A stretch of 40,654 bases of DNA. Source: a virus. The notes beneath the pieces were generated by a model, which was not told the origin of the DNA, searched no databases, and saw nothing but the letters and a program-made list of their open reading frames with translations. The position numbers were made by a program, and so were the translations under genes. The stretch spans positions 1 to 40,654 of IMG/VR virus record IMGVR_UViG_3300011116_000277. One strand, given 5' to 3'. Shown here piece after piece: positions 5,192-28,746 of this stretch. Numbering within the stretch: position 1 is the stretch's first letter; each line of letters opens with the position of its first letter.

Positions 5192-5364
5192 TACTTACCC
5201 TTCTTCTTAGCCTTGCGTGCTACTGCTGCATTGTCCACAAGGTTGGGATACTTCCGCCCCGCAGCCTTTGCACGAGCACGAGCAGCAGCCTTCTGTGCAG
5301 AAGTCAGTTTTGTAGATGTCTTTTTTGGATTCTTCTTGTCCCAAAATGCTTTACCTTTCACCAT
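5191..5364 (-). CDS. Tiny lysine/alanine-rich basic protein
   Basis: 57 residues, MVKGKAFWDKKNPKKTS... with the Ala/Arg/Lys stretch AAARARAKAAGRKYP and a KAKKKGK end. It is strongly basic and was found by reading the gap between the neighbouring genes. The stop TAA overlaps the ATG of the next gene, and the start lies inside the last codons of the upstream gene. Tight coupling in a run of basic mini-proteins supports a real gene. It may bind nucleic acid or be packaged in the capsid, but this is inference. Confidence 0.65.
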   Translation of the reverse strand: MVKGKAFWDKKNPKKTSTKLTSAQKAAARARAKAAGRKYPNLVDNAAVARKAKKKGK

Positions 5365-5633
5365 TTCACCTTATCTGCCCAATATGCTGCAGACATTTTG
5401 CCTTTAGCGATATTCTTGGCGTGACGAGCCTTAAAAGATTTTTGTCGTGCAGTTGGTTGTCTATCACCAGTTACACCTTGTTGACCAAAGCGGATAGTCT
5501 TAACTTGGCTACCCTCTTTGGCTACTACTACATGTGACTTAGTTGGATGACTAGGAGTTCTCTTAGGTTTATTAAAACCAGATACTCCTGCTCTAGCGAG
5601 CCTTGAGTCCTTTTTCTTTGCCATATTCCCCAT
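5358..5633 (-). CDS. Conserved basic phage protein (GFNKPKRTPSHPTKSH type)
   Basis: 91 residues, basic. It has GVSGFNKPKRTPSHPTKSH, VVVAKEGSQVKTIRFGQQG and, at the end, FKARHAKNIAKGKMSAAYWADKVKW. I recall nearly the same blocks in small virion-region proteins of many aquatic phages; the function is unknown. The start at 5633 has AGGA just upstream. An alternative ATG at 5624 (MAKKK) follows GGGGAA closely. It overlaps both neighbours. Confidence 0.75.
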   Translation of the reverse strand: MGNMAKKKDSRLARAGVSGFNKPKRTPSHPTKSHVVVAKEGSQVKTIRFGQQGVTGDRQPTARQKSFKARHAKNIAKGKMSAAYWADKVKW

Positions 5634-5745: not shown

Positions 5746-5906
5746 TATTTCTTTTTCTTAGCCATCTTTGCTTCGCTCATAGCGATAGCCACGGCTTGCT
5801 TCTTGGATGTTACCTTTGGTCCTTTTTTAGAACCTGAGCGTAGAGTTCCACGCTTGTATTCACCCATAACTTTTTTAACTTTCTTTGCTGCCATTGTTTT
5901 TTTCAT
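5745..5906 (-). CDS. DUF6496-like small basic protein
   Basis: 53 residues. The core VKKVMGEYKRGTLRSGS followed by VTSKKQAVAIAMSEA matches the pattern of the DUF6496 family as I remember it (KVMxEFKxGxLxSGS...VxSRKQAIAIALSEA), short proteins common in phages and bacteria, of unknown function. A KKKK end adds charge. The ATG at 5906 overlaps the upstream TAA (TAATG); an in-frame ATG at 5894 is an alternative. It sits in the chain of basic mini-proteins beside the capsid genes. Confidence 0.75.
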   Translation of the reverse strand: MKKTMAAKKVKKVMGEYKRGTLRSGSKKGPKVTSKKQAVAIAMSEAKMAKKKK

Positions 5907-6085
5907 TAGTCCATGTCCTCCTCGTAGTCATCCATCTCTGGCTTCATGCCGTATGGTGTTTCACCAATGCGGTGAATTGGTCTGTTGTACATTGCAACAT
6001 TTGGTTCTTTTGGTAGTTCTGTAGGTGTTCTTCCACCCACTCCGTAAGGAGTAACAGTGCCGAAGCAATTACACTCAATACACAT
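5906..6085 (-). CDS. Small Cys-containing protein, unknown
   Basis: 59 residues, MCIECNCFGTVTPYG..., with three Cys in the first seven residues, a repeated TPYG motif and an acidic end (MDDYEEDMD). The start follows a clear AAGAGG ribosome site 6 nt upstream. It lies just after the Ntn-hydrolase gene and is coupled by TAATG to the next gene. The Cys cluster may bind a metal, but a fourth ligand is not evident. Confidence 0.6.
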   Translation of the reverse strand: MCIECNCFGTVTPYGVGGRTPTELPKEPNVAMYNRPIHRIGETPYGMKPEMDDYEEDMD

Positions 6086-6095
6086 TTTTAACCTC

Positions 6096-6665
6096 TTATC
6101 TAGTAAATTGGGTTTTTATATTCACTGGTCCGCCACACCAGATGTTATACTGAATAGCGATATTGATTGCTTTCTTAGCAGCACTTGCTGCTTTAGTATG
6201 CGTTCTTCTCTCTGCATCTAATGCCGATAATGCACCTAATGCAATACCACCACCAGCACCTATTCCGTATAAACCTTTGTCATCTCGCATATATCCATAG
6301 TCATCACTAACTTGATATATCTTTCCATTAAAACAAATTAAAGCATCCCAGCCAGCATCATCATCATTTTTATTCTTAGGTGCTGGGTCGTAACCTGCTT
6401 CGGTTAATGTTTGCTTTATAGAAGGTAAAACTCTAATCATCATAAATCTATCTGAGTCTTGAGTTTTAATTACCTTTGGTGGTTGCCATAAGTTATTTAG
6501 AATATCTCCTGCTATAGCATCACCTGCTACTGCAACTAGATACTCACCAACCTTGACTATCTTCTCGCATCCTTTGGCTACATAAGGTTTATCCGTATAT
6601 GTAGTCATTGAGTCTGCTGCTAAGACAGCCCAGCCTTTGCCTTGCACACCAACTATTGCTGTCAT
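6096..6665 (-). CDS. HslV/proteasome-beta-like Ntn hydrolase
   Basis: 189 residues. After the initiator Met, Thr becomes residue 1: TAIVGVQGKGWAVLAADSM places Asp at 17, as in proteasome beta subunits and HslV, and CEKIVKV supplies a Lys at 34, matching catalytic Lys33 with one residue offset. Further on GIGAGGGIALGALSAL matches the glycine-rich GSGG.yA segment next to the active site of this family, and HTKAASAAKKAINIAI the following helix. It should be an N-terminal-threonine peptidase after Met removal. Placed in the capsid operon, with no other protease seen there, it is a candidate prohead maturation enzyme or a virion-associated peptidase. The fold assignment is fairly firm; the role is inferred. 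Confidence 0.75.
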   Translation of the reverse strand: MTAIVGVQGKGWAVLAADSMTTYTDKPYVAKGCEKIVKVGEYLVAVAGDAIAGDILNNLWQPPKVIKTQDSDRFMMIRVLPSIKQTLTEAGYDPAPKNKNDDDAGWDALICFNGKIYQVSDDYGYMRDDKGLYGIGAGGGIALGALSALDAERRTHTKAASAAKKAINIAIQYNIWCGGPVNIKTQFTR

Positions 6666-6679
6666 GGTCCCCTTCTAAA

Positions 6680-6925
6680 TTATGCGCCGTATGCTTTTCC
6701 TGTTTGGTTTGAAATCCTTACGGCTTTTTCAATTTGTTTCATGCTAGTTCCATCAGGCTGTATGCCTTGTGCTCTAGCATTTTTATATGCTGCTAACTCT
6801 CTATCCCATTTTTTCGTAGACATGTGAAGATTAGAATTAGCCTCACCAGCGTTCATATTTAAAGATAATGCTTTACAACCAAAGCAACCTTCTTTAGGCT
6901 CTGGATGATATTCCCAATGTTTCAT
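6680..6925 (-). CDS. Small CxxC protein of the capsid operon
   Basis: 81 residues. The N-terminal motif HPEPKEGCFGCKAL carries a CxxC; the rest is polar and helical (TKKWDRELAAYKNARAQGIQPDG). I recall proteins with an EPxxGCFGCK start near structural genes of other actinophages; no function is known to me. The ATG overlaps the stop of the upstream gene (6922-6925). Confidence 0.65.
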   Translation of the reverse strand: MKHWEYHPEPKEGCFGCKALSLNMNAGEANSNLHMSTKKWDRELAAYKNARAQGIQPDGTSMKQIEKAVRISNQTGKAYGA

Positions 6926-7182
6926 GCAGGCACTATGTATGCTCCGTAGCCTTGTGCTACTAAAGCATCCTTTGTTGTTTGGTCAATAAGATTTTTTGTA
7001 CCACCCATATAAAATTCCTCTGCAGCCAGTATTTGAGTTTGGCTTGGGTATCTAAATGATGAGTATACACCATTAGTGCGAAGTACGGATATGCCACGGT
7101 TTAACTTGTAACGGTCAAACAATGGTGGTCCACCTGCTGGTGTTTCATCTATTGTTGGTGGTGTAAAGTAATAGTTTGCCAT
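6922..7182 (-). CDS. Small structural-region protein (head completion candidate)
   Basis: 86 residues from the ATG at 7182, which follows AGGAGG at good spacing; a longer frame from 7239 lacks such a site. The sequence MANYYFTPPTIDETPAGGPPLFDRYKLNRG..., with VLRTNGVYSSFRYPS, is typical of short proteins found just after the major capsid gene. The position suggests a decoration or head-tail joining part. No diagnostic motif is seen. Confidence 0.65.
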   Translation of the reverse strand: MANYYFTPPTIDETPAGGPPLFDRYKLNRGISVLRTNGVYSSFRYPSQTQILAAEEFYMGGTKNLIDQTTKDALVAQGYGAYIVPA

Positions 7183-7239
7183 AGTCCTCCTAATGGACTC
7201 ACCATAAGGCAGGATTGCTCCTGCCCTACAGTCAATCAA

Positions 7240-8418
7240 TTACAGAGCAGCGATTGAAGAACCGCTTTCAATGCGATACAACGCTTCTTCGCGGTAACGG
7301 TTCCATCCAAGGACTCCGTACCAACCGATTGGGCGGAAACGCATTAACTTATCAGTGATAGGTCCGATGACCACACCTGGCTCTTGTGACACGGCTTCTG
7401 CCAATGCTTGCTTACCGCAAAGAATTGTACGGAATACACGAGTTACAGGAGTTACAGTTACAACAGTTGTAGCAGTTACTGCTGCTGTGTTAGCAGTATC
7501 AACAGTAATTGTTGTTGTTGAACCAGAAGTGCTGATAGCAGAAATCTTGGCACCTGAAGCGATACCTGTTCCTGCAATCTTATCGCCAACCTCTGAACGA
7601 GTTGCAACTACTGAAGAAGAAGCAACACCGAAGGTGAAGCCTGCTGAAGTACCTGCAACGGTTACTGCGGTTGTAGCAAGGGCAGTCTGGTCTGCTCCAT
7701 CTTTAGCGGAGTACATGCGTGGGTTCTCTACGAAGAAAGCACCCTCGTATGTTCCGATGGTACCTGCGAACAAGTTACCAAGAGAAGCATCAGTGTGTGA
7801 GTGAGTATCACGCCATCCGACAGAGCCTGACTCTGCACGAAGGTCATGTGATACTTCTGGGTGGATTCCTACCCAGTATAGGCTTCCTGAACGAGGAACA
7901 GCCTTGTTTGAGCGTAACTTAGCAACAGCCTTGCGGATGTCAGCAGAATCAAGTGTATCTGATGCTGTGATTGTTGCAGTGCTTGTGCGGGTTCCGCCAT
8001 AAATAACATTGGTTCCTTGACGAAGGGTGTTTTGTGCCACGATGTCAAGTGAGTCAGCCATGTTAAATGCGATGATGTCTGCAACAGCAGGGTCAACATC
8101 GGATAGTGAGAACAACTGTAGTTTGCGAGTTACAAGTGATGCGTTACCGTACTCGTTTAGAGTAACAGATACGGTATCAACATCGCTTAGTGCAACTGCA
8201 TCTGGGTCAGTTGTTTCTGCGAGTGTAGAAGTAGCAGCAGCCAAATCGTTGTAAAGTGAGAATACAACGGATGACCCTGGCATTGCCTGTTGTACAGGCT
8301 TCTTGTCCGCAACAGCACGAATCATTGGCTGAGCGCGGAGTGCAAATTCAACATATCGGTCATAAGCGGTCTTTACTAGACCACCTAGAGCCGAGGTGTC
8401 TGTATATGAATTTGGCAT
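7240..8418 (-). CDS. Major capsid protein, N4-gp56 family
   Basis: 392 residues. The start ATG at 8418 follows AGGAGGTG; the in-frame GTG at 8427 lies inside that site. The N-terminal half (RYVEFALRAQPMIRAVADKKP, MPGSSVVFSLYNDLA, then SVTLNEYGNASLVTRKLQ and ADIIAFNMADSLDIVAQNTL) fits the N4-gp56/P22-type coat family. Near residues 248-325 a Ser/Thr/Val-rich stretch (TVAGTSAGFTFGV...TTVVTVTP) interrupts the core; it looks like an inserted beta domain, possibly exposed on the capsid surface. The C-terminus (RFRPIGWYGVLGWNRYREEALYRIES) returns to the family pattern. Scaffold lies directly upstream. It assembles the icosahedral shell. Confidence 0.9.
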   Translation of the reverse strand: MPNSYTDTSALGGLVKTAYDRYVEFALRAQPMIRAVADKKPVQQAMPGSSVVFSLYNDLAAATSTLAETTDPDAVALSDVDTVSVTLNEYGNASLVTRKLQLFSLSDVDPAVADIIAFNMADSLDIVAQNTLRQGTNVIYGGTRTSTATITASDTLDSADIRKAVAKLRSNKAVPRSGSLYWVGIHPEVSHDLRAESGSVGWRDTHSHTDASLGNLFAGTIGTYEGAFFVENPRMYSAKDGADQTALATTAVTVAGTSAGFTFGVASSSVVATRSEVGDKIAGTGIASGAKISAISTSGSTTTITVDTANTAAVTATTVVTVTPVTRVFRTILCGKQALAEAVSQEPGVVIGPITDKLMRFRPIGWYGVLGWNRYREEALYRIESGSSIAAL

Positions 8419-8457
8419 TGGGTTCACCTCCTAGTGAGTGGTTGATGTATAAGTTGT

Positions 8458-9033: not shown

Positions 9034-10575
9034 TTATATTGTTGTTGTTTCTTTTAGGCTGGTACCGCTAATACCACCCTTTTGAGCAAACCTTGCAGTT
9101 TCGCGGGCTGCTCTGCGTTGTGACTGTAATAATTGTTCTGTATCTGCACCAACAATTCCACCGATTGCTTCAAGGTCTGAATACTGTTGACCTTCAATTT
9201 GTGCCAAACGGCGTTGAGCCTTAGATAATTGTTGTGCTCTTTGGAATTCATTTCTAAGAGTAAGATAGTTTTTCTCACCAGTTATTGGTACAAGAGTTTG
9301 ACTATAATCAATATTCATTAAATCTTTTGCAAAGCCTGCTGCAGCAGCAGCAGCGCCAATCTCAGCAGTACGAACTTGTTTCTTAATAATAGCCATACCT
9401 GCTTCAGGATTTAACAAATAAGCAGCAACGCTACTCTTATCTGCTTCAGGATAAAAAGATTTAAATGTAGCAAGAACTTCTGGATTTTCATTAACTCTAG
9501 TAACAGCCAAATCTAATCTTGATTCAAACTCACGAGGATTAACCATATTAGATATGTATGTACCAAGTGCTTTACGACTGCCAAGAACTGCAGTATCTAA
9601 TCCATAAGCACGCAAACTTTGTAGATATGCTCGTTCATTAGAAATATAGGTGCTTTCATTTATTGCTACGCCTGCTTTTCTTAAAGACTCCATACCAGGA
9701 AATCTATCTGCATAAGCCTGAGTTTTAGGTAACTCTAATTTAATTTGTGCTGCTGTATAATCGTTCTTAATAAATGAATCAATAGTATCTGCTAAATCTG
9801 CCAAACCCATATCAGTTAAAGATGCTCTAAATAATTCAACTGCAGTCTTTTGTTCAGTAGTTAACTTAGATGTAGAAGTTTGTGTTGATGCAGTGCTTGG
9901 TAAAGTACCTGTTGATGAACCTACATAAGTTCCTTTAGAATCAAATTGTCCACCAGGAACTTTATTACCTTGTGCGTCATAACCACCTTCTGTTGTAGAG
10001 GTTGGTAAACCAGCAGAACCGTATAAATTGCCCCATTGAGATTGCAATTTTTGAACTACTAACTGTGGAATACCACCAGCAGCAATAGCCTCATCATATT
10101 GTTTTTTTATTAAGATAGCAGCCATTGCATTAGTATCAGTAGTACCATCTGGTTTTCTTACTTGCTTTTGTTCTTCAGCAGTTAGTTGTCCAGATATGGG
10201 TGTATCATTAAAATATCCCTGTGAGTTAATTCCACCACGAGAAGCAATATATTCTTTTGTATAACCAAGTGCTCTGGCTTCTGCTTCTTTAGCAGCGTTA
10301 CGCTCAGTACCAGTAATTGTTAAACCAGATGAAGGTGAAACCATACCAATAGTAGTAGCAGCAGGTGGTCTACCTGTTGTTGGGTCTATACCAGTATAAG
10401 TTTTTCCGTCAATAGTTACAGTTCTAGTTTGTGCTCCATATTGGTCTGCAGCAGAACCAGTAACTGTTGATGGAGTTGCAACACCTGCTTGACCAAAAGG
10501 TGTACCAGTTGTAGATGTACTACTTACGGATGGTAAACCCATCATTGCTCTAATTCTGTCGCGTTCGTCAGCCAT
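9034..10575 (-). CDS. Putative internal virion / ejection protein
   Basis: 513 residues. The N-terminal 230 residues are low-complexity Ser/Thr/Gly/Pro sequence (MADERDRIRAMMGLPSVSS...); the remainder is helical with AAAAAAGFAKDL and ends in Gln/Arg-rich helices (RRLAQIEGQQYSDLE). A middle segment (LPKTQAYADRFPGMESLRKAG, residues about 280-300) resembles repeats seen in phage internal proteins. With two neighbours and the 1945-residue protein it forms a group between portal and scaffold, the place of ejection proteins in many podoviruses. I assign the role by position and size only. Confidence 0.5.
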   Translation of the reverse strand: MADERDRIRAMMGLPSVSSTSTTGTPFGQAGVATPSTVTGSAADQYGAQTRTVTIDGKTYTGIDPTTGRPPAATTIGMVSPSSGLTITGTERNAAKEAEARALGYTKEYIASRGGINSQGYFNDTPISGQLTAEEQKQVRKPDGTTDTNAMAAILIKKQYDEAIAAGGIPQLVVQKLQSQWGNLYGSAGLPTSTTEGGYDAQGNKVPGGQFDSKGTYVGSSTGTLPSTASTQTSTSKLTTEQKTAVELFRASLTDMGLADLADTIDSFIKNDYTAAQIKLELPKTQAYADRFPGMESLRKAGVAINESTYISNERAYLQSLRAYGLDTAVLGSRKALGTYISNMVNPREFESRLDLAVTRVNENPEVLATFKSFYPEADKSSVAAYLLNPEAGMAIIKKQVRTAEIGAAAAAAGFAKDLMNIDYSQTLVPITGEKNYLTLRNEFQRAQQLSKAQRRLAQIEGQQYSDLEAIGGIVGADTEQLLQSQRRAARETARFAQKGGISGTSLKETTTI

Positions 10576-10577
10576 AA

Positions 10578-11975
10578 TTAACTCACAAATCCAAAGGTTC
10601 TGCCAAGGTCAAGTGCCATATTGGTATAAGTTTCCTTTGCGTTTCTAGTATATTGCCATAATGGGTCTTGCTTTAGAGCCTTGTTAAAGTCTGCAAATGT
10701 ACGAGCATTGCCAGTATCTCCAACAATAACTTTATTCATAAGGTCATCCCATGTAATGTTAGAGCCATCTACCTCAAGTAAATTAGCCATTTGATTACGA
10801 TAGTTAGCAGTTACCTCATATAAACTTTTACCAGCCTTTAAAGACTCAGCAAATGGTTTATTTTGTGGTGCATCTATTGCCATTTGCTTAACACTATTAA
10901 CCCAGTACTGAGCATCTCTGCCATCCATTGGGTCAAGTAAAGATGTGTTAATAGCCTTTTTTAAATTACTATCTAGGTTAATTCCATATAGATATGCAGT
11001 TTGATTAATGCGGTCAAGATAACTACCAATGGTGCCACCACCAGTAAAAATTAACTCACTTTTAGTTGATAAGTAACTATCTAGTTGTGAATCAGTCCAG
11101 TTGTTTTGTATTGCTTGTAGTGCAATACCTTTCATATATTCTGTATTATCAACAACCCTACCAGTAGTTGGGTCCACTGTACGAGGCGCTACACCAAGTG
11201 CTTCCATTTTCTTGGTAATGCTATCCATCTGATTCTTAACTCTCTCAGCAAACATACCTGCTTTGCGAGGGTCATTACTTTCTAAGAAAAATTGAATCAA
11301 ACTAGGAGAACTTGTACGCCACCAAGTTGTGCCCTCAAGGGCTTCCATAAATGTTTTTTCATCCCACTTTTGTTTTACAGCAGTATCAAATATTCTATCT
11401 ATTTCAGCCTTTTGAACTTTGTCATCAAGTGTAGAAAATACTGTTCGTAAATATGAAATCCATAAACCTTTTGTATCTTCTGTAGTTGTAGTTTTTGCCC
11501 CACCTACAGATGGTTTTGGTGCAGCAGTAGAAGCAGGAGTAGGTGTAGGGGTTGCAGTAACTACTGGCTTTACAGTTGCAGCAGTTTCATATTCAGGACT
11601 ACCAGGTCTTATGCTTTCTCCACCAGGACCAAAACGAAGTTCTTGAGGTGGTTGATTTAATAAATCAGTACCTGTAAATTTATCTAAAGCCTCTTGTGCT
11701 TTAGTAACTTGTTCCTCAGTACCATACCTTTGAGCACGAGTTAAAGCATCTTGAAGTTTCTTTCTTTCTTTTGCAGCCTCAGCATTTTTCTTTGCTTGTG
11801 CTTCTGACTCAAGAGTTCTAATTTTACCTTGTATATCATCAAACTTCTTTTTTTCTTGTTTATATTTAGTAGAATCAAGAGGCAGTTTATCTAAAACTTT
11901 TCTTTGTCTATCTAAATCAAGATATGCTCTTTCAATTTCGGTTACTGGGCGTAAACTGCTTCCACCTATTGCCAT
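10578..11975 (-). CDS. Putative internal virion protein, coiled-coil N-terminus
   Basis: 465 residues. Residues 12-90 form charged coiled coils (RQRKVLDKLPLDSTKYKQEK, EAQAKKNAEAAKERKKLQDA). A Pro/Thr linker (TPTPTPASTAAPKP) follows, then a helical C-terminal domain with Trp/Tyr-rich segments (TWWRTSSPSLIQFFLESNDP, DPLWQYTRNAKETYTNMALD). There is no membrane segment or catalytic motif. It is probably a partner of the adjacent 513- and 1945-residue proteins in the ejected core. The start overlaps the upstream stop at 11975. Confidence 0.5.
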   Translation of the reverse strand: MAIGGSSLRPVTEIERAYLDLDRQRKVLDKLPLDSTKYKQEKKKFDDIQGKIRTLESEAQAKKNAEAAKERKKLQDALTRAQRYGTEEQVTKAQEALDKFTGTDLLNQPPQELRFGPGGESIRPGSPEYETAATVKPVVTATPTPTPASTAAPKPSVGGAKTTTTEDTKGLWISYLRTVFSTLDDKVQKAEIDRIFDTAVKQKWDEKTFMEALEGTTWWRTSSPSLIQFFLESNDPRKAGMFAERVKNQMDSITKKMEALGVAPRTVDPTTGRVVDNTEYMKGIALQAIQNNWTDSQLDSYLSTKSELIFTGGGTIGSYLDRINQTAYLYGINLDSNLKKAINTSLLDPMDGRDAQYWVNSVKQMAIDAPQNKPFAESLKAGKSLYEVTANYRNQMANLLEVDGSNITWDDLMNKVIVGDTGNARTFADFNKALKQDPLWQYTRNAKETYTNMALDLGRTFGFVS

Positions 11976-12361
11976 TATGCCTGTGCCCTTCTAACATTTT
12001 CTAGTACCTTGTTGTAGATAGCATCTAAATAATCATTTTCTTGTCGCTTACGAAACTCAGGTGTTTCTTGAACTACAGATATAACAGCCTGTTGGCGACC
12101 CATAGCATCTGTTCCTGCTGGTTGACTTAAGAATACATTAATAGCCTTGCTGCGTTCTGCTCCTACAGCATTACGACCAAGGTATTGAGTATAGATATTT
12201 TGAATTGCAGCCTCTGCATCTTGAGCAGTTGGTCCTTCAGATACAACTCCACCCATAGAAGCATAGGATTTAATTAAATCTTCTAAGTTTACTCCACCAG
12301 TAGTTTTACCAGTACCTGCTGGTGTACCAGATTGAGTTGCTGGTTTATTGTCTTTTGCCAT
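11975..12361 (-). CDS. Small helical virion-cluster protein
   Basis: 128 residues. A disordered N-terminus (AKDNKPATQSGTPAGTGKTT) leads to a helical domain (AIQNIYTQYLGRNAVGAERSKA and TPEFRKRQENDYLDAIYNKV). It is coupled on both sides by 1-nt overlaps (11975, 12361). No named family is recognised. It may join or chaperone the large internal protein encoded directly upstream. Confidence 0.6.
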   Translation of the reverse strand: MAKDNKPATQSGTPAGTGKTTGGVNLEDLIKSYASMGGVVSEGPTAQDAEAAIQNIYTQYLGRNAVGAERSKAINVFLSQPAGTDAMGRQQAVISVVQETPEFRKRQENDYLDAIYNKVLENVRRAQA

Positions 12362-15300
12362 TAAACTACCACCGTATCATTTATGAAGTAACGATTTAAG
12401 AATTGTTCAAACTCTGGACTTTCTGCAATAAGTTGTTGTCTTACTTGCTCAAAAGCATAAGCCAAGTCAGCATTACTTTTTGCGCTAAGTGTTTGTGAAC
12501 CACCTGCCCTGTCACGCTGCTTTAATAATTCTGCCATTTGTTCACGCAAGTCAAGGTATACTCCCATAGCCTTAACTACTGAACGGTCACCATTTTGTGC
12601 CATCCATTTTTTATCAGCCAAAGCCTTTTTCAAAACAAGAGCACGGCGTTCATACTTACCTCTATCTGGAGATATGTACTCTGAATACCAGTCAAAGTTT
12701 TCTTCTGCTTGAGAGCGAACCCATAATTGCTTGGCACCATTAATAACATCCATACGAGGGTCACTATCAGCAACAATACCATTTTGAATTTTATAGGTAT
12801 TAATCTGACCCATTAATGAATTGAACTGAGTCCAACCACGCTTAATGTTTGCATCACGCAATAGTTCTTCTGGAGCACGATTTTGGCGGTAAGTATTTTT
12901 AGAGCCAGGATATGCACCTTGGCGATATTGCCATTGGTACGCTGCTTGGCTAAATGTGTACTGACCATCAAAATCATTTGCAAGGAAACCAATTAGTTCT
13001 GGATTATCAGAAGCCTCAGCCTCTGCCATAAGTCCACGGAACTTCTTTAAGTTTTTAACTGTATTCATATTAGACTCAAGGCTGCCAGGTGACTTAGAAA
13101 GACTTACTGTAGCCTCAAAATAATCTGGATACATCTCAAGAAACTTAGCCTCAGCCTCACCAGGTCCATATTGATTTTGGAACTGACGGAAAGTCTGTTG
13201 GTAAAAGTCCATTTCTGGGCTAATTGCAAATGGCATAGTTAATGATGAAAATGCACGAAGTAAAAAAAACTTATTTGTTTTATCTGTTATTTCGTCTAAA
13301 GTAGGTTCATCTGTTCTTTTACCAGAGTTATAGTTGTAAGCCTCATATCGTAGCATTTGGTTAAATGTACGAACATAAAGTTCATCTTGACTATACATAG
13401 TGCGTAAACGGCGAAATGCTGCAGGTGTAAATAAGTCTGTTGCAGACTGTGGCATACCAGCAGGGAAGAAAGGTCTAAACGCTTCTTCCAATTCAGGGCG
13501 ATTACGCAAAATTAAATATGTTGGAAGTACTGCATAAGGACCAAATCCAGGGTTACCAGGTTGACCTTGAGTAATAACATCTAACGATGCTAATGGTATA
13601 TTTACAGACTTAAAGGCATTATTAGCAACTTCTTGCCATGCTTTTGGTAGTGAATCAATAAAGCCTTGTGGAACTTGAATTACTAAATTAGCATATCTGT
13701 CACCAGATAAATCTTTAGCATCTGTAATACGGTTACCATCTTGGTCTACAACAGTTTGACCATTTACAATCTGGGCAATAGTACGACCAGCAGTTGCTAC
13801 AGCCTGTGGATTTTCAGCAACAATACCTGACCATCTTTTAGCAGTATTTTCATAGGCTGCATAAAATGGAAATAGTAATTGCATTACTTGGCTTGAAGAA
13901 GCACGAGTACGGCGCACAATAGTAAACAAAGTTTGTTCTACCGTACGGCGAGAATCTTCTCTAGCACCTTTAACTGCTGCATTTAATTCTTCTGCAGTTA
14001 ATTTATCTGTACCTTTAGCATCAGCAATATTTTGAATATTTATTCTAACCTGACGGTTATATGTAGATACTGCTAATGGATGACGAGCAAAAACATCTTC
14101 AGGTAATGAACCTAAGAAACGCATTACACGCCTATTAAAGGTATCAATTAAACGCTCTTGGTCACGATACTCTTTGCTTGTGGTAACAAGTAGTCCATTA
14201 ATATCTGGTAAGTTTTCTGGGTTAGCACCAAACTTATTTCTTAAATAATTCTGCAATTCAGCACCAGATATTGGTTTACCATCTGGGCGTTTATTGCTAA
14301 GTAATAATGCTGTTTCTTCGTCAGGTATGTATAGTTTTACAGAACTGCGAGTAATATTAATTTTTTCTAATAAATCTTCGTTTAACTCTCCACCCCTTAA
14401 GGCTGTTAAACCAAATGCTTGTCGTGGAGTTGTATATGTATCATTAGCATAAAGACGACCCTCTGAACTGCGAGTTAACCAACCAAGAATATCTTGGTCT
14501 GTTTCGCCATCAAGAATCCTACGAACCATTGGGTCAAGTATTCCTGTTTCAGGGTCACGGAAATGTAAGTTAAGAATATTTGACCAAGCCTCAAAATACT
14601 TTGGGTCATTAGATTTTACTTTGCTAACTGTTCTAGCACCAATGCCAGCAGAAAATGCCATCTCTTGTGAGCCAACTAAAGCGTTCCAAGTATCTTCAGC
14701 AGATGTGCGACCCATAAACCAAGTAGCATCTTGGAAAGTATTTGGGACATTGTATTTATAGCCATTGGCTTCAATATCAATATATCCATAACCTGTGCGT
14801 TGCTTAATAGCATTTGTTTCAGCACGAGTTACACCAGCATTTAATCTAGTAGAAATGTCATCAAGATAAGCATGTGACATTGTATAAAGTTTTGCTAAGT
14901 TTTCAGCAGCATCTTCAACACCATTATTAATCATGGCATCAACATTTTCCTTAGTGTAGTAAGGAGATATTGGTGTTTCTGTTTTTCTCGCTGCTTTACG
15001 AGCAGCAGTTTTAGCAAGACGGCGTTGTTTAGGTGTAGCCATTTGTTGCTCAAGAATTGGTAAATCTTCAGCAGCCTCAACTGCAGCACGCTCTTGCATT
15101 TGTGTAATGCTGCGTTCTACAGAGCGTTTACGACCAGCGCTATCTACAGCCTCTGGCAGTACGATATTAGATACTCCGCCTGCTAAATTATCGTCTTGGA
15201 CAACAGCACGACCAAAACCTTTTTCACGCATATATTGCGTAACTGGGTCATTAGGATTATTCCAACCCTTATTTCTAGTCCACTCTTTGTAGTTGGCAGA

Positions 15301-18198
15301 TTTGCCACCAAAAGCAGACTCACGCAAATCTAATGGAATATCAGACCATTTAGTTAGATATAAAGCCTCACCATATACACGAACAGATACTGGTTTGTTT
15401 ACTGTACCTTTAACTCTGAATACAGCACGGCGAAATAAATCTGGAGTAATTTCTAAAGCATCTTCTTCAGCAAGACGAATTTGATTCCAAGTTAACAAAT
15501 CAACTTTTTTCCACCCTTTAGGGGTACGCATTTCAACTTCTTTGCCAGCATTTTGTGCTGCAATCATGTCAGTTAATAAGTTATCTGAAGCCTCATCTAA
15601 TGTAGCAGCACGGCGCTCAGCAGAACGCTCACGAGCACCAGCACGCTTAATAATAGCCTTTTGCTCATCAATGGTTTGTTGTAATAAGTTTACATCCCAT
15701 TGTGTTTCACCACTTCTGGTTAATTCTTTTTGAGCCTGGGCTAAATTGCTTTGTGCTTGTTGTAAAGTTTTACGAGCATCTTTAATGCTTTCAGCAACTT
15801 CAGTAATTTTACCAGGGCGACCAGTAGGTGTTTGTAAATAGTTTTCTGTAGAGTGAATTGTAAAGCCAGTTGAGTAACGAGCAGCGATTGCTGGTGATGC
15901 AGAGGTAGCCAGTACTCTTGCTTCATCTAATTTAAATGCTGCATCTGGACTGCCATGATAAACAGTTACAGACTCTAAATCAGATAATACGCCACGAAGG
16001 GTGCGAATCTCATCTTCTGCTGTTAACGGACCAACACCTGGAGTAAGCCGTAATTTAAATACATCGTTTTCTAAATCTCTAACACGGTCAGAAACTGCCT
16101 TAGCAAGTTGTTTTCTGCTCATATCTATAGAGCGAAGTTTGTCAACCTCTGATTGAAATGCGTACTCAAGAGCACGCACATCATCTATTCTGCCAGCAGA
16201 AACATTTACATTGTCAATTAATCTATTAAAACCAACTTTGCGATTATTGAAGAATCGTTTTACTGCCTCTGGTCCACCTGCTGCCACCATTGCTGGTAAC
16301 GCAAAACCTTTAGCCAACATAGATAATTGTGCTTCAGTAATATTACGCACGGTATAACCTAGGCGCATAAGTACTGATGTTTTAAAAATATCATTAATAG
16401 TTGCTAGTGCAGATAAACCTTTTTGAGTTCTTAGGGTTAAATCTTCTACAGCCAAGCCATCTAAAAGTCCTGGCAATATACGCTCATGTGAATCAATCGC
16501 ATATTTTAATTTTCTTAAATCTGCAATTACTACAATGTTTGCTGATTCTCTTTGTAGTATAGGAGCAATAGCATTTACAACTTGACCATTTTCCATGTAG
16601 GAAACAAAACCTTGGTTACGGTGTTGTTGGATTCTTGATGCTCTACGAGAGTCAAAAATTGCATATAATTTATCAACAGTTTGTTGGTCGTAATTAGGAA
16701 ATAATGTAGATAATGAAGCCTTTTCAGCCTGTTGAATAATTGCATTACGCTCACCAGGAGAAACTGCTGCTAAATATCTATCAGCAAATCCTGCTGCTTG
16801 AGAACCAAAACGACCTTTTGATAACTCATTAGCCTCACGCAAAAAAGCATTAAACTCAATATATGAATCACCATCGTTAACATTAAATACACCACTTGGT
16901 AATTCTTTAGTAAAAAAGTTAACAACTTTAACCATTGGGTGAAGGCTAGTCTTTTGAAAAATTACACTATCTGCTTCAGCAAATACAGCCTGTGCTTTCT
17001 TTTGTGACTTTTGGGCAAGTTTACCTTCCCATGGTCCACGACTAAATCCATACTTTAATTGACCACCAGTACGAACATCAGCCAATGCTGCTGCAAATCT
17101 TTGGTCGTATGAATCACTTGCTTCATCTGTTAACTTTGAAATATAAGCACCAGTAGCAGTATTGTAATCTGGAGATGTAATTAAATCACCATCTGTTTTA
17201 CCCTCAAGAAATTGACGATGAGGATGTGGTACATCACTTAAAGCATCTAAAACTAAAGCAGGCTCTGGGTCATTTGCAGCAATTTTTGAAATAGCCTTTG
17301 TATCACGATACATAACAGCGCGGAAAGTATCTACTACTTCCTCTTGGCTGGTTGCTCTACCAAACAAATATGCCATTGCATCTGGATTAGTAACTTTCTT
17401 TTTGCGCCAGTATTCATATTGCTCACGAGCATTACTACGAGCAAGAAAGTCAATATCAGAAAGTGCTTCACCCTTACCCTCAAGGGCTTGGGTAAGAATA
17501 TTATCTAACCGTTCTTCAGTCATAGCAAACTTGCCAAATACTGCACGAGCAGTCTTGCCTTGAATTTGGTCAAGCATTGGAGCCTTGGCTACAATTACCG
17601 CACCTTTACCTAAGAAACCAGCAAAGGTTAATGGGTCAATAATTGTAGAGGCTGTAATATCAGGAATACCAGATAAAAACTTTCCTAAGTATTGGTCACG
17701 AAAGGCTGTATCTCTGTCTTCCTGATTAAAAACATCAAAGCCTGCAGATAAAAATTTAAGATTATTGTCAGTCCAATTTTGGAACCAACCGCTATTATCT
17801 CCAGCATTGCGACCTGGAGAGAGCACAGAAAGTGCTGCTTGTCCTAAAGAAATATTTTGTTTTTCGCGCTCTACACGAAGTACATAATCAGAATAAGATT
17901 CACCTGGAGCCTTAAACTTATTATACATAAATGGTTGTTCAAGGATTGTTTCAACACCTTCACGGCGTACCTTGCCACCTAATTCGTATGAAGCCTCACC
18001 AACAGCAAGTAGTCCACCAACTGCAGCACGAACTGGAGTTGTTGCTACTTTAACCGTGTTCTTTACAAAGTTAACACCGTCAATATACCAAGGGTCATCA
18101 TTACTACCAGAGGTTGCTATGTCTTTAAATAAACCTGGTACTCCAGTAAAGTCAACTGCAGACTTTGCCATCTTACCTAGGTTATCAAACCATGACAC
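12361..18198 (-). CDS. Giant 1945-residue internal/ejection protein with ART-like segment
   Basis: The GTG at 18198 shares its G with the upstream TAG (TAGTG). The product is a long, mostly helical protein that opens MSWFDNLGKMAKSAVDFTG and contains LFPFYAAYENTAKRWSGIVA in the C-terminal third. About residues 744-1016 include VYHGSPDAAFKLDEAR, ASPAIAARYSTGF and KGFGRAVVQDDNLAGGVSNI, the order and spacing expected of an ADP-ribosyltransferase-like fold (entry YHGS, exit xxGxVxxN...GGxSxIV). No transglycosylase or polymerase motif is seen. Its place between portal and scaffold and its size suggest a protein injected with the DNA. It is 14% of the genome. The ejection role is inferred, and the ART call is tentative. 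Confidence 0.6.
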   Translation of the reverse strand: MSWFDNLGKMAKSAVDFTGVPGLFKDIATSGSNDDPWYIDGVNFVKNTVKVATTPVRAAVGGLLAVGEASYELGGKVRREGVETILEQPFMYNKFKAPGESYSDYVLRVEREKQNISLGQAALSVLSPGRNAGDNSGWFQNWTDNNLKFLSAGFDVFNQEDRDTAFRDQYLGKFLSGIPDITASTIIDPLTFAGFLGKGAVIVAKAPMLDQIQGKTARAVFGKFAMTEERLDNILTQALEGKGEALSDIDFLARSNAREQYEYWRKKKVTNPDAMAYLFGRATSQEEVVDTFRAVMYRDTKAISKIAANDPEPALVLDALSDVPHPHRQFLEGKTDGDLITSPDYNTATGAYISKLTDEASDSYDQRFAAALADVRTGGQLKYGFSRGPWEGKLAQKSQKKAQAVFAEADSVIFQKTSLHPMVKVVNFFTKELPSGVFNVNDGDSYIEFNAFLREANELSKGRFGSQAAGFADRYLAAVSPGERNAIIQQAEKASLSTLFPNYDQQTVDKLYAIFDSRRASRIQQHRNQGFVSYMENGQVVNAIAPILQRESANIVVIADLRKLKYAIDSHERILPGLLDGLAVEDLTLRTQKGLSALATINDIFKTSVLMRLGYTVRNITEAQLSMLAKGFALPAMVAAGGPEAVKRFFNNRKVGFNRLIDNVNVSAGRIDDVRALEYAFQSEVDKLRSIDMSRKQLAKAVSDRVRDLENDVFKLRLTPGVGPLTAEDEIRTLRGVLSDLESVTVYHGSPDAAFKLDEARVLATSASPAIAARYSTGFTIHSTENYLQTPTGRPGKITEVAESIKDARKTLQQAQSNLAQAQKELTRSGETQWDVNLLQQTIDEQKAIIKRAGARERSAERRAATLDEASDNLLTDMIAAQNAGKEVEMRTPKGWKKVDLLTWNQIRLAEEDALEITPDLFRRAVFRVKGTVNKPVSVRVYGEALYLTKWSDIPLDLRESAFGGKSANYKEWTRNKGWNNPNDPVTQYMREKGFGRAVVQDDNLAGGVSNIVLPEAVDSAGRKRSVERSITQMQERAAVEAAEDLPILEQQMATPKQRRLAKTAARKAARKTETPISPYYTKENVDAMINNGVEDAAENLAKLYTMSHAYLDDISTRLNAGVTRAETNAIKQRTGYGYIDIEANGYKYNVPNTFQDATWFMGRTSAEDTWNALVGSQEMAFSAGIGARTVSKVKSNDPKYFEAWSNILNLHFRDPETGILDPMVRRILDGETDQDILGWLTRSSEGRLYANDTYTTPRQAFGLTALRGGELNEDLLEKINITRSSVKLYIPDEETALLLSNKRPDGKPISGAELQNYLRNKFGANPENLPDINGLLVTTSKEYRDQERLIDTFNRRVMRFLGSLPEDVFARHPLAVSTYNRQVRINIQNIADAKGTDKLTAEELNAAVKGAREDSRRTVEQTLFTIVRRTRASSSQVMQLLFPFYAAYENTAKRWSGIVAENPQAVATAGRTIAQIVNGQTVVDQDGNRITDAKDLSGDRYANLVIQVPQGFIDSLPKAWQEVANNAFKSVNIPLASLDVITQGQPGNPGFGPYAVLPTYLILRNRPELEEAFRPFFPAGMPQSATDLFTPAAFRRLRTMYSQDELYVRTFNQMLRYEAYNYNSGKRTDEPTLDEITDKTNKFFLLRAFSSLTMPFAISPEMDFYQQTFRQFQNQYGPGEAEAKFLEMYPDYFEATVSLSKSPGSLESNMNTVKNLKKFRGLMAEAEASDNPELIGFLANDFDGQYTFSQAAYQWQYRQGAYPGSKNTYRQNRAPEELLRDANIKRGWTQFNSLMGQINTYKIQNGIVADSDPRMDVINGAKQLWVRSQAEENFDWYSEYISPDRGKYERRALVLKKALADKKWMAQNGDRSVVKAMGVYLDLREQMAELLKQRDRAGGSQTLSAKSNADLAYAFEQVRQQLIAESPEFEQFLNRYFINDTVVV

Positions 18199-18650
18199 TA
18201 TACGCCCTCTACCTGACTACGCACATAACGATACCAATTACGCATTGCGTTTGATGCTTGTGGGCTTTCGGCAATCTTTGCATAAAATGGCAAATATGCT
18301 GCTAGTTGTGCAATGTCTTGATTATTCTGTGCACGAAGCATAGCAGGTGCTGCCATAACTTCTTCACCAGCATTTGGTCCAGCAATACCACCAGTATCCA
18401 AACCTTCATCTGGGAATTGAGTTGGAGCATTAAGTGGAACTATCCCAGTTGTATCCATCCTAGGTATAGTTGGTTCTGTAGAAACTTTTAAATTATTTGC
18501 AGGATTTTGTCCTGACATTTTTGCTTGTGTTTGCATGTCGTAAAAATCTTGAGCGTTATCAATACCTGCTGCATATCTTGCTGGTTGTCCATTAGTGCCT
18601 GCACCACCTGTTGCAGATACTTGGAAATTATTTTCTTTTGCTTTTGCCAT
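18198..18650 (-). CDS. Portal-adjacent small protein, unknown
   Basis: 150 residues. The first 110 are disordered, rich in Asn, Gln, Gly and Pro, with PRMDTTGIVPLNAPTQFPDE; a short helical end follows (YLPFYAKIAESPQASNAMRNW). It is coupled to the giant protein by TAGTG and preceded by the 23-nt palindrome at 18685-18707, so it opens a transcription or translation unit. No family is recognised. Proteins of this shape can act as portal clamps or plugs. Confidence 0.6.
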   Translation of the reverse strand: MAKAKENNFQVSATGGAGTNGQPARYAAGIDNAQDFYDMQTQAKMSGQNPANNLKVSTEPTIPRMDTTGIVPLNAPTQFPDEGLDTGGIAGPNAGEEVMAAPAMLRAQNNQDIAQLAAYLPFYAKIAESPQASNAMRNWYRYVRSQVEGV

Positions 18651-18892: not shown

Positions 18893-20716
18893 TTACGCAA
18901 CTGGTAGTCGTCTTACGAGGGAAGCCTGAAGATTAGGTTCACCTCTTTGCGTTAAACTTGCTAAAAGCGATTGAACATCTGGTCTACCACCTGGAGCAAT
19001 TTGTCCAGGAGCCACACCTTGCATACGACCAGTTTCACTTAATCCCAATGGAAGTTGCCCCTCACCTGGGGGGACCGCACCTGACTGCCCAGCAAGTTCG
19101 GGACTTACACCTTCAGGGGTCATCATCGCACCAGGTGGGGGATTCTGTGGTTGAAACGCCTCTGATACTGCTTGTTCAATAGGTGTACCTTTTTGGCGTT
19201 GATTGATGACTGTAGATAATTTATACAAAATATCTGAAGGGTTTTGTCCTTGTGATGCAAGGGCTGGAATTGCTTGTGCATAAGAAGCAATAGCCTGCTT
19301 CATAGCATCGCGCAAATCTTCGGTATCAACTTTTTCTTCTTCTTGTGTTGCATTAAATGAGAACGGCATCTGACGGCGTAAGAAGTCACGAGAAATTAAC
19401 TTATCGCCACGAGCCTGCAATCCGAATACTAATGCACGGTTTGGGTCAAGTCCTGCCATCAATCCGTATTGAACATCAACAGTGTAATCACCGTCAATAT
19501 CACGAGATGGCTTGTATTTGATTGCGTATGGAACTCCGTTGCGTGTACCACGCAAAGTTTTTTCCATATTGTCAAAAACTTTTTCGTCTACTTTAAGTGC
19601 TAAGCCAACAAGTTCTACAAAGGCACGAGCAAACATTGCATGTGCTGATTTAATCTGGGTATCAAAGCCACCCATAAGAGCCTGCACACCACGACCAGTT
19701 ACGATAGAAGCATCAATGTTTCCTGTGCGTGACTCTGGATAACGAGAACCTAGACGAAGTTCTCCTTCAAGTACTTGCTGTTGAGCAAAAGCACCTGGTG
19801 GTATGTCAATAGACAATCGGCGAACATCTGAAGGTCGTTCAGTTCTGATAACAGCATCTGGTCCAAGGGCTAACTCACTTACATCTCGTGGGGCTACAAG
19901 GGGTGCTTGGACTGCTTTGGTGGCAGCCTCAAGTGAAAGAAGTGCATAACGAGCCTTTGCAACTTGAATTGCAAGTACATCGTCAAACTGTCCTCGCGCT
20001 TGTGAATCTAATGATGGGCGTTGGACAACACGAATAAGAACTTCACCAATAGGATTTGGTGCTCTATCAATAACTAAGTTACTTCTTTGTGGAACAAAGA
20101 GAATATCTTGGTCTTTGTCATGGTAGCGCACAATCTCTAACATTGAGTTGGTAGAGTCTTTGTCGTATAGCAAATGGGCATATTCTGGATATGCAGCCAT
20201 TAAGTCAGCCAATGGTTTCTTAATTCGTTGATACATGCCATGGACTTTGCCGAAGCGGTCAATGACTGGGTAGCAACCATAAGAATCTAAGAAACGGATT
20301 CTTGGCATATTGTTTTCTAAGTCAACCTCAACCTGTGCTGGTACAAAGCCGTATGAAACATAACGGTCTGCAGCATCAAACATTTGAGTTTGCAAATCAG
20401 AAAAGTCAATAATTCCATTTACGATTTCTTCGCGCTTGTCAGCCTTCTTGCGCTCTTTGTCAGAAACCATAGTTGGTGAATTACAGTTAAAAGCAGGAAG
20501 CGGTGCAATTACCTCAGACAAATCTCGTGCTGCAATGTCCACCATGTTTGCAACAATAGGGTTCTCAAATGGACCATCTGGAAATAAATCAGGGTACACA
20601 TCACGCATACGACCTTTACGAACAAGAAGGATTTGCTCCATACGAGTATCTCGTTCAGCATAAGCCTGCTTGTAGCGGTCATAATTATCTTTAATTGCTT
20701 CTAGGGAAAGTGGCAC
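18893..20716 (-). CDS. Portal protein
   Basis: 607 residues from the GTG at 20716, 13 nt after the terminase stop. Portal-type features: an N-terminal helical part (IKDNYDRYKQAYAERDTRMEQ), a NPIVANMVDIAARDLSEVIAPLP helix, a central wing with RFLDSYGCYPVIDRFGKVHG, and a C-terminal crown and Gln/Pro/Gly-rich tail. GGFDTQIKSAHAMFARAFVE fits the long stem helix. As a dodecamer at one capsid vertex it forms the DNA channel and docks terminase. The order terminase-portal supports the call. The length is at the long end for a podovirus portal. Confidence 0.85.
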   Translation of the reverse strand: MPLSLEAIKDNYDRYKQAYAERDTRMEQILLVRKGRMRDVYPDLFPDGPFENPIVANMVDIAARDLSEVIAPLPAFNCNSPTMVSDKERKKADKREEIVNGIIDFSDLQTQMFDAADRYVSYGFVPAQVEVDLENNMPRIRFLDSYGCYPVIDRFGKVHGMYQRIKKPLADLMAAYPEYAHLLYDKDSTNSMLEIVRYHDKDQDILFVPQRSNLVIDRAPNPIGEVLIRVVQRPSLDSQARGQFDDVLAIQVAKARYALLSLEAATKAVQAPLVAPRDVSELALGPDAVIRTERPSDVRRLSIDIPPGAFAQQQVLEGELRLGSRYPESRTGNIDASIVTGRGVQALMGGFDTQIKSAHAMFARAFVELVGLALKVDEKVFDNMEKTLRGTRNGVPYAIKYKPSRDIDGDYTVDVQYGLMAGLDPNRALVFGLQARGDKLISRDFLRRQMPFSFNATQEEEKVDTEDLRDAMKQAIASYAQAIPALASQGQNPSDILYKLSTVINQRQKGTPIEQAVSEAFQPQNPPPGAMMTPEGVSPELAGQSGAVPPGEGQLPLGLSETGRMQGVAPGQIAPGGRPDVQSLLASLTQRGEPNLQASLVRRLPVA

Positions 20717-28407: not shown

Positions 28408-28746
28408 ATGAAACCAAAATTCCACAAAATACTGGAAGAAAAGCAAGTAATAGATAAGCAAGGCAAACCAGTCACTCGTTATGTCTTAAGATACAACTCT
28501 AAGTTATTTGAAGGTGGCACTTGTAAAGGATTAGATGTTGAAACTTTTTATCCACCACAAGATGTGTTCTCATATACCGAGGAGAAGATGGTTAGCAAGA
28601 TGTGTGCTGACTGTCCAGTAATGATGGCTTGTTTAGAGTGGGGCTTGGCTCACGAAAGGTATGGGATATGGGGTGGCACTACGCCAAACCGAAGAAAAAC
28701 ATTGAGGCGCTTGATGAAAATACAGGTGACAGAGCCAAGGATATGA
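28408..28746 (+). CDS. WhiB-like iron-sulfur regulator
   Basis: 112 residues from the ATG at 28408; a longer frame from 28363 overlaps the previous gene. The four cluster cysteines are C39, C66, C69 and C75 (the CxxCxxxxxC block CADCPVMMAC), followed by LEWGLAHERYGIWGGTTPNR, the family's G(I/V)WGG turn, and a basic end for DNA binding. WhiB proteins hold a 4Fe-4S cluster and bind the host sigma factor; phage copies can take over host WhiB targets or block superinfection (known for mycobacteriophage TM4 WhiB). It identifies the host as an actinobacterium. It is the last gene before the terminator at 28760. Confidence 0.92.
   Translation: MKPKFHKILEEKQVIDKQGKPVTRYVLRYNSKLFEGGTCKGLDVETFYPPQDVFSYTEEKMVSKMCADCPVMMACLEWGLAHERYGIWGGTTPNRRKTLRRLMKIQVTEPRI

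Follow-up and report, generated by a model that had tools for sequence, protein, structure and literature searches.

A proteasome-like threonine hydrolase gene alternates with a gene for an unrelated 85-residue protein in the late genes of a freshwater actinophage lineage

The window, that is, the whole stretch of DNA analysed here (40,654 nucleotides), is a 40.7-kb virus record. Its late block lies on the minus strand. The block begins with the terminase, the portal protein, a 150-aa ORF, a 1945-aa protein, three more ORFs and a scaffold-like protein, and continues with the coat protein (Phage_capsid_3), o6922, o6680, the proteasome-like gene (referred to as Ntn), small ORFs, o5358 and the tail genes. 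The Ntn gene is thus located among the head genes, as the initial annotation stated. The main features are as follows.

5358 to 5633, minus strand: o5358, 91 aa, a very conserved marker on the downstream side of the slot
5906 to 6085, minus strand: 59-aa ORF directly downstream of the cassette, kept in both Ntn and p85 phages
6090 to 6680, minus strand: exchangeable cassette, replaced by the p85 gene in the relatives L296 and L300 (flank alignment; last aligned bases 6681 and 6089)
6096 to 6665, minus strand: Ntn gene, proteasome-like N-terminal-threonine hydrolase, 189 aa (ORF, Pfam, PHROG, AF2 model and alignment)
6680 to 6925, minus strand: o6680, an 81-aa conserved protein with a GCFGCK motif, the end of which forms the upstream slot border
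6922 to 7239, minus strand: o6922, a conserved protein between the coat gene and the cassette
7240 to 8427, minus strand: major coat protein, Phage_capsid_3, PHROG 1357, 395 aa
8458 to 8910, minus strand: probable scaffold protein, 150 aa (weak DUF4355/Gp46 scaffold match)
18893 to 20716, minus strand: portal protein; the portal slot is empty here, and the next ORF starts at 18650
28363 to 28746, plus strand: WhiB transcription factor (Pfam Whib, 8.5e-15), a marker of an actinobacterial host

The WhiB protein, together with a sigma-70-like gene in the window, points to an actinobacterial host. No DNA-level relatives of window positions 1–25,000 were found among phage records. An SprT-like metallopeptidase gene (23252–23890) is encoded on the other strand and is not part of the late block. 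The o5358 protein is about 90–99% identical across most of the lineage (71–72% in L289) while its neighbours diverge, and a phage minor-head/pilot protein profile matches it weakly. Alignment of Streptomyces phage coats with the window coat falls into two segments that together cover about 75%; the window coat (395 aa) has an apparent extra domain near residues 245–325, which is missing from the coat of Streptomyces phage Immanuel3 (320 aa).

The Ntn gene is an ATG-started ORF of 189 aa that runs from 6665 to 6096 on the minus strand, and its product starts with Met-Thr. The product matches the Pfam family Proteasome (PF00227) with an E-value of 6e-8 and a score of 32.9 bits, above the curated cut-off of 22.4 bits. 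In PHROG, it matches family 1040 ('peptidase HslV family') at 4e-27. By single sequence, the nearest solved structure is BPH, the betaproteobacterial proteasome homologue (5ovs, 5ovt and 5ovu), at 1.6e-5, and a profile of 34 Ntn sequences reaches both HslV and BPH in the PDB at about 1e-11. The AF2 model has a pLDDT of 89.5 and a pTM of 0.87. BPH is again the best match of this model by Foldseek (5e-12), and the VIA comparison with BPH gives a Z score of 19.6 over 172 residues at 2.6 Å. HslV and the 20S beta subunits are close behind BPH in fold, many of the 20S beta subunits being within 1 Z. According to AF2, Foldseek and VIA, the Ntn sandwich with the helices H1–H4 is present in the model. 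The dN/dS values between Ntn and its relatives are 0.04–0.14, indicating strong purifying selection on the gene. The proposal of an HslV/proteasome-like Ntn hydrolase is therefore borne out by Pfam, PHROG 1040, the PDB profile search and the fold predicted by AF2, and the suggested structural check against HslV returned the Ntn sandwich.

After removal of the Met, the residues Thr1, Asp17 and Lys34 are present, and the GxGGxxALGA segment reads GIGAGGGIALGAL; these are the active-site features that the initial annotation had listed. Asp17 and Lys34 are identical in all 131 distinct aligned relatives. The corresponding count for Thr1 is partly by construction, because the script chose starts followed by ACN; the N-terminal Thr is also kept in annotated phage homologues. 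At mature residue 136, which corresponds to Ser129 of the proteasome, the window protein has Ala; among the 131 relatives, 97 have Ser here and 18 have Thr. This Ala may lower the activity of the enzyme. The loop after H2 (about residues 90–105, NKNDDD) is long and partly acidic, and all four ring-contact helices are present in the AF2 model, unlike in connectase. According to sequence and model, the product is an N-terminal-threonine hydrolase of the proteasome superfamily, and its catalytic residues look intact. As for the C-terminus, relatives of 241 aa encoded by L355 (11777–12502), L369 and L372 carry a lysine-rich extension of ~50 residues, and basic tails are also found on the relatives of DSL-LC01, L127 and L144.

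Close relatives of Ntn are encoded on 343 IMG/VR stretches. Among the ~40-kb relatives, the commonest placement is directly after the portal gene; in the clade of the window, the gene follows the coat gene, o6922 and o6680, and in larger phages such as L136 it directly precedes the portal, scaffold and coat genes. Homologues outside the head block are found in DSL-LC01, L119, L134, L154, L182, Pantoea phage AAS21 and Vibrio phage 1.101.O. The nearest named relatives are OX376640/1 'ct2KA10', which by name and description correspond to the Planktophila phages LanE43AprE7 and LanE43AprF5 (hereafter E7 and F5), the first phage isolates on Ca. Nanopelagicales (PMC10202952). E7 and F5, whose coats are 71–72% identical to the window coat, are members of the same ~40-kb actinophage lineage. 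An Ntn homologue is present in each of them, and in F5 it is located directly after the portal gene. The homologues of E7, F5 and Actinomycetia phage DSL-LC01 (OQ999401) show 30–36% identity to the window Ntn, and that of DSL-LC01 adjoins whiB, away from the head genes. Two PHROG 1040 Ntn genes (796–1419 and 27775–28389) are present in the record G034 (locus L170). A bacterial source of the gene was also considered but gained no support: the scan of genome contigs, which used a strict pattern, gave one weak match, L294 (JAURLY010000091.1, labelled as a Gammaproteobacteria MAG), and this contig itself appears to be phage DNA. The Ntn gene of L294 comes after a phosphoesterase-like gene, an arrangement shared with L136, and inspection by eye shows an ORF that resembles WhiB; the contig is probably a mis-binned actinophage.

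In part of the lineage, the Ntn position is occupied by p85, an ORF of ~85 aa that is not related to Ntn. The p85 protein is basic at its N-terminus and acidic at its C-terminus, and it contains a motif resembling GFxxxxAMxFVMDKxSYPxW. No trustworthy match was obtained in PHROG, Pfam, phage records or PDB folds, and the model has a pLDDT of 76 and a pTM of 0.49. A set of 45 whole records, sampled by coat protein and not by Ntn, was searched for both genes. Ntn was detected in 24 records and p85 in 20; no record has both, and the sole record with neither, G001, is a contig whose start is so close to the coat gene that the portal slot is left out. The p85 gene occupies the exact position of Ntn, namely, after o6680 in the clade of the window and after the portal gene in G011; in the sister clade, Ntn or p85 directly follows the portal gene. 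Across the loci, the coat-side slot holds Ntn in 32 cases and p85 in 48, and never both. The portal-side slot holds Ntn in 103 cases and p85 in 5, again never both, where the Ntn count is biased by the way the loci were found and by repeated contigs. In the contig L368, the coat-side slot is empty, and the portal slot lies outside the region covered by the contig. In the coat-protein tree, a branch with full support separates the phages of one slot from those of the other, and Ntn and p85 must have replaced one another at least six times, with switches in both clades. Among 22 near-complete genomes, Ntn is present in 14/14 of one group and 0/8 of the other, and p85 in 0/14 and 8/8, respectively; no other family separates these genomes perfectly.

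The borders of the exchange were determined by comparing the window with L296, which has p85 in place of Ntn. The coats of the two phages are 97% identical and the scaffolds 96% identical. The DNA is about 90% identical up to position 6681 and again from position 6089, and L300 breaks at the same two positions. The exchange is therefore gene-exact, and only the Ntn gene is swapped. Recombination at a single cassette position could partly explain the exclusion at one slot; the exclusion also holds for whole records and across the two slots. The large internal-type late proteins at 12361–18198, 9034–10575 and 10578–11975 show only 25–39% identity to those of L002 and L299, against 93–98% for the coats, so this block has also been exchanged, independently of Ntn.

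Ntn and the coat have evolved apart. The window Ntn is 88% identical to that of L107, a portal-slot phage whose coat is 73% identical, whereas it is 53% identical to that of L299, whose coat is 93% identical. In the Ntn tree, the clade of the window is nested among portal-slot phages with a support of 95, in disagreement with the coat tree. Ntn is uncoupled from both the coat and the scaffold.

We consider that Ntn is a late, BPH-like, probably unfoldase-independent peptidase, that it acts in an accessory niche which p85 can also fill, and that it is not the capsid-maturation protease; we give this reading a probability of about 0.5. No HslU partner was found among the window ORFs scanned with Pfam, and one may be supplied by the host. 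No other unfoldase partner was found in the window, and the one AAA protein matched is DnaB-like. In BPH, a long acidic pore loop has been linked to independence from an unfoldase (Fuchs et al., PMC8665760). From the long, partly acidic H2 loop, the four ring helices and the lack of an unfoldase gene in the window, an unfoldase-independent, BPH-like peptidase is most likely.

According to this reading, Ntn would be a BPH/HslV-group peptidase with its catalytic residues in place. It would probably form a ring, would be produced late, along with the virion proteins of this freshwater actinophage, and would probably need no AAA+ unfoldase. Each phage of the lineage would keep one of the two genes, Ntn or p85, in one of the two late-gene slots, and either product would fill the same accessory niche of the infection cycle. 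The alternation suggests one common niche. As p85 has no recognized function or fold, the sharing of this niche is deduced from the exclusion. In the simplest mechanism, the same host or late-phage protein would be removed by both kinds of phage: by proteolysis in the Ntn phages, and by binding, or by handover to a host protease, in the p85 phages. The removal of a target by digestion or binding is what we infer from the alternation. Immanuel3, a cultured Streptomyces phage, has neither Ntn nor p85 in the stretch examined, and thus the niche is not shared by all phages with this type of coat. It may be, and we propose this only tentatively as something short of an even chance, that freshwater actinophages need one late function which is met either by a proteasome-like protease or by a substituting 85-residue protein, the two being carried as exact cassettes and never together.

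Several other explanations were weighed against the BPH-like late peptidase. Ntn may be made along with the coat, packaged inside the head and brought into the cell together with the DNA, with a defence or regulatory protein of the host as its target at entry; p85 would be the alternative packaged protein. Such a protein would resemble the exchangeable internal proteins of T4. The slots beside the coat or portal gene, the exact cassette exchange, the decoupling from the coat, and the tails rich in Lys and Arg, which p85 and some of the Ntn relatives carry, are consistent with packaging. Nevertheless, we regard this as unlikely, since no packaging signal was identified, homologues are located in non-head blocks of larger phages, and a ring-sized complex may not fit ejection.

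Alternatively, Ntn could act on the Pup-proteasome of the host, as a beta-like subunit that either joins the 20S particle or blocks it, and p85 could be a small proteasome-binding inhibitor. The host is inferred to be an actinobacterium, and 20S proteasomes occur in many actinobacteria and are raised by Rhodococcus during phage infection (PMC10986025). However, Ntn is closest to BPH and HslV in sequence and fold, though the 20S beta subunits are nearly equal in fold, and it retains all three catalytic residues, although a poison subunit could do without them. The literature searched gave no information on whether Nanopelagicales hosts have a proteasome. We consider this explanation improbable. 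A similarly small chance is given to a non-proteolytic enzyme, for example, a protein ligase or an amidase that modifies a virion or host protein. The Ala at the position of Ser129 would agree with such an enzyme, but the closest folds to Ntn are proteases, and the helices H1 and H2, missing from connectase, are present in the model.

The least probable explanation is that Ntn is a prohead maturation protease cleaving the coat, scaffold or portal protein during assembly, a role raised in the initial annotation. In favour of this role, the gene has its place among those for the head: in the ~40-kb lineage it comes directly behind the portal gene or behind the coat gene, and in L136-type phages directly before the portal–scaffold–coat genes. 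In the ORFs scanned with Pfam, no protease of the S14, S78 or U35 type was matched, as the same annotation had reported, nor was any other head protease, and Ntn itself gives Proteasome only. However, a maturation protease is expected to travel with its substrates, and Ntn does not. It is exactly swapped for p85 in close relatives with near-identical capsid proteins, its tree disagrees with that of the coat, and in many other actinophages its homologue is located outside the head genes. In addition, no protease is annotated next to the portal, scaffold and coat genes of the cultured coat relatives Immanuel3 and LuckySocke (Streptomyces phages) and Pascal (a Bacillus phage), and no N-terminal prosegment is seen on the window coat relative to the Immanuel3 coat. 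Ntn is thus probably not the capsid-maturing enzyme, and maturation was rejected as the main explanation.

In comparison with known systems, BPH is the best match to Ntn in fold and near the best in sequence. Both have the Met-Thr start and a long, partly acidic H2 loop, and in both no unfoldase partner is seen. Unlike BPH, Ntn is a phage late gene product with Ala at the position of Ser129, the two proteins are only about 23–25% identical, and whereas BPH forms a double heptameric ring, a ring is probable for Ntn. Ntn shares with HslV the Met-Thr start, the Thr1/Asp17/Lys triad, the GxGG segment and the fold. In contrast, its scores are far below the NCBIfam HslV cut-offs (23.3 against 137 bits for NF003964, and 22.4 against 157.75 bits for TIGR03692), and HslU was not found in the window.

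The initial annotation regarded an Ntn enzyme in this setting as unusual. Proteasome homologues of phages as such are not: PPH and AAH were described by Fuchs, Alva and Lupas in 2021 (PMC8665760). From these reports and from the name of PHROG 1040, the Ntn gene belongs to an already known kind, and like PPH and AAH its product is a group I proteasome-like protein in Caudoviricetes. PPH has ~140 residues and the window Ntn has 189, so that Ntn falls outside the length given for PPH (PMC8665760). No AAH was found by these authors in Actinobacteria-specific phages (PMC8665760), whereas the Ntn family is common in actinophages; this comparison with AAH is by description only. Strict alternation with p85 is not described for PPH or AAH (PMC8665760). 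It was not found in the literature searched, and we consider it the part worth following.

Although phage proteasome homologues have been catalogued, we found no account of what they do. Their function can be approached genetically through the strict alternation, since whatever Ntn and p85 have in common, for example, a target, is likely to be the function. The cultured Planktophila phages E7 and F5 infect a bacterial group that is among the most abundant in lakes, and as they carry a homologue, the present reading is testable. The case also shows that a protease encoded within a capsid operon does not have to be the one that processes the capsid.
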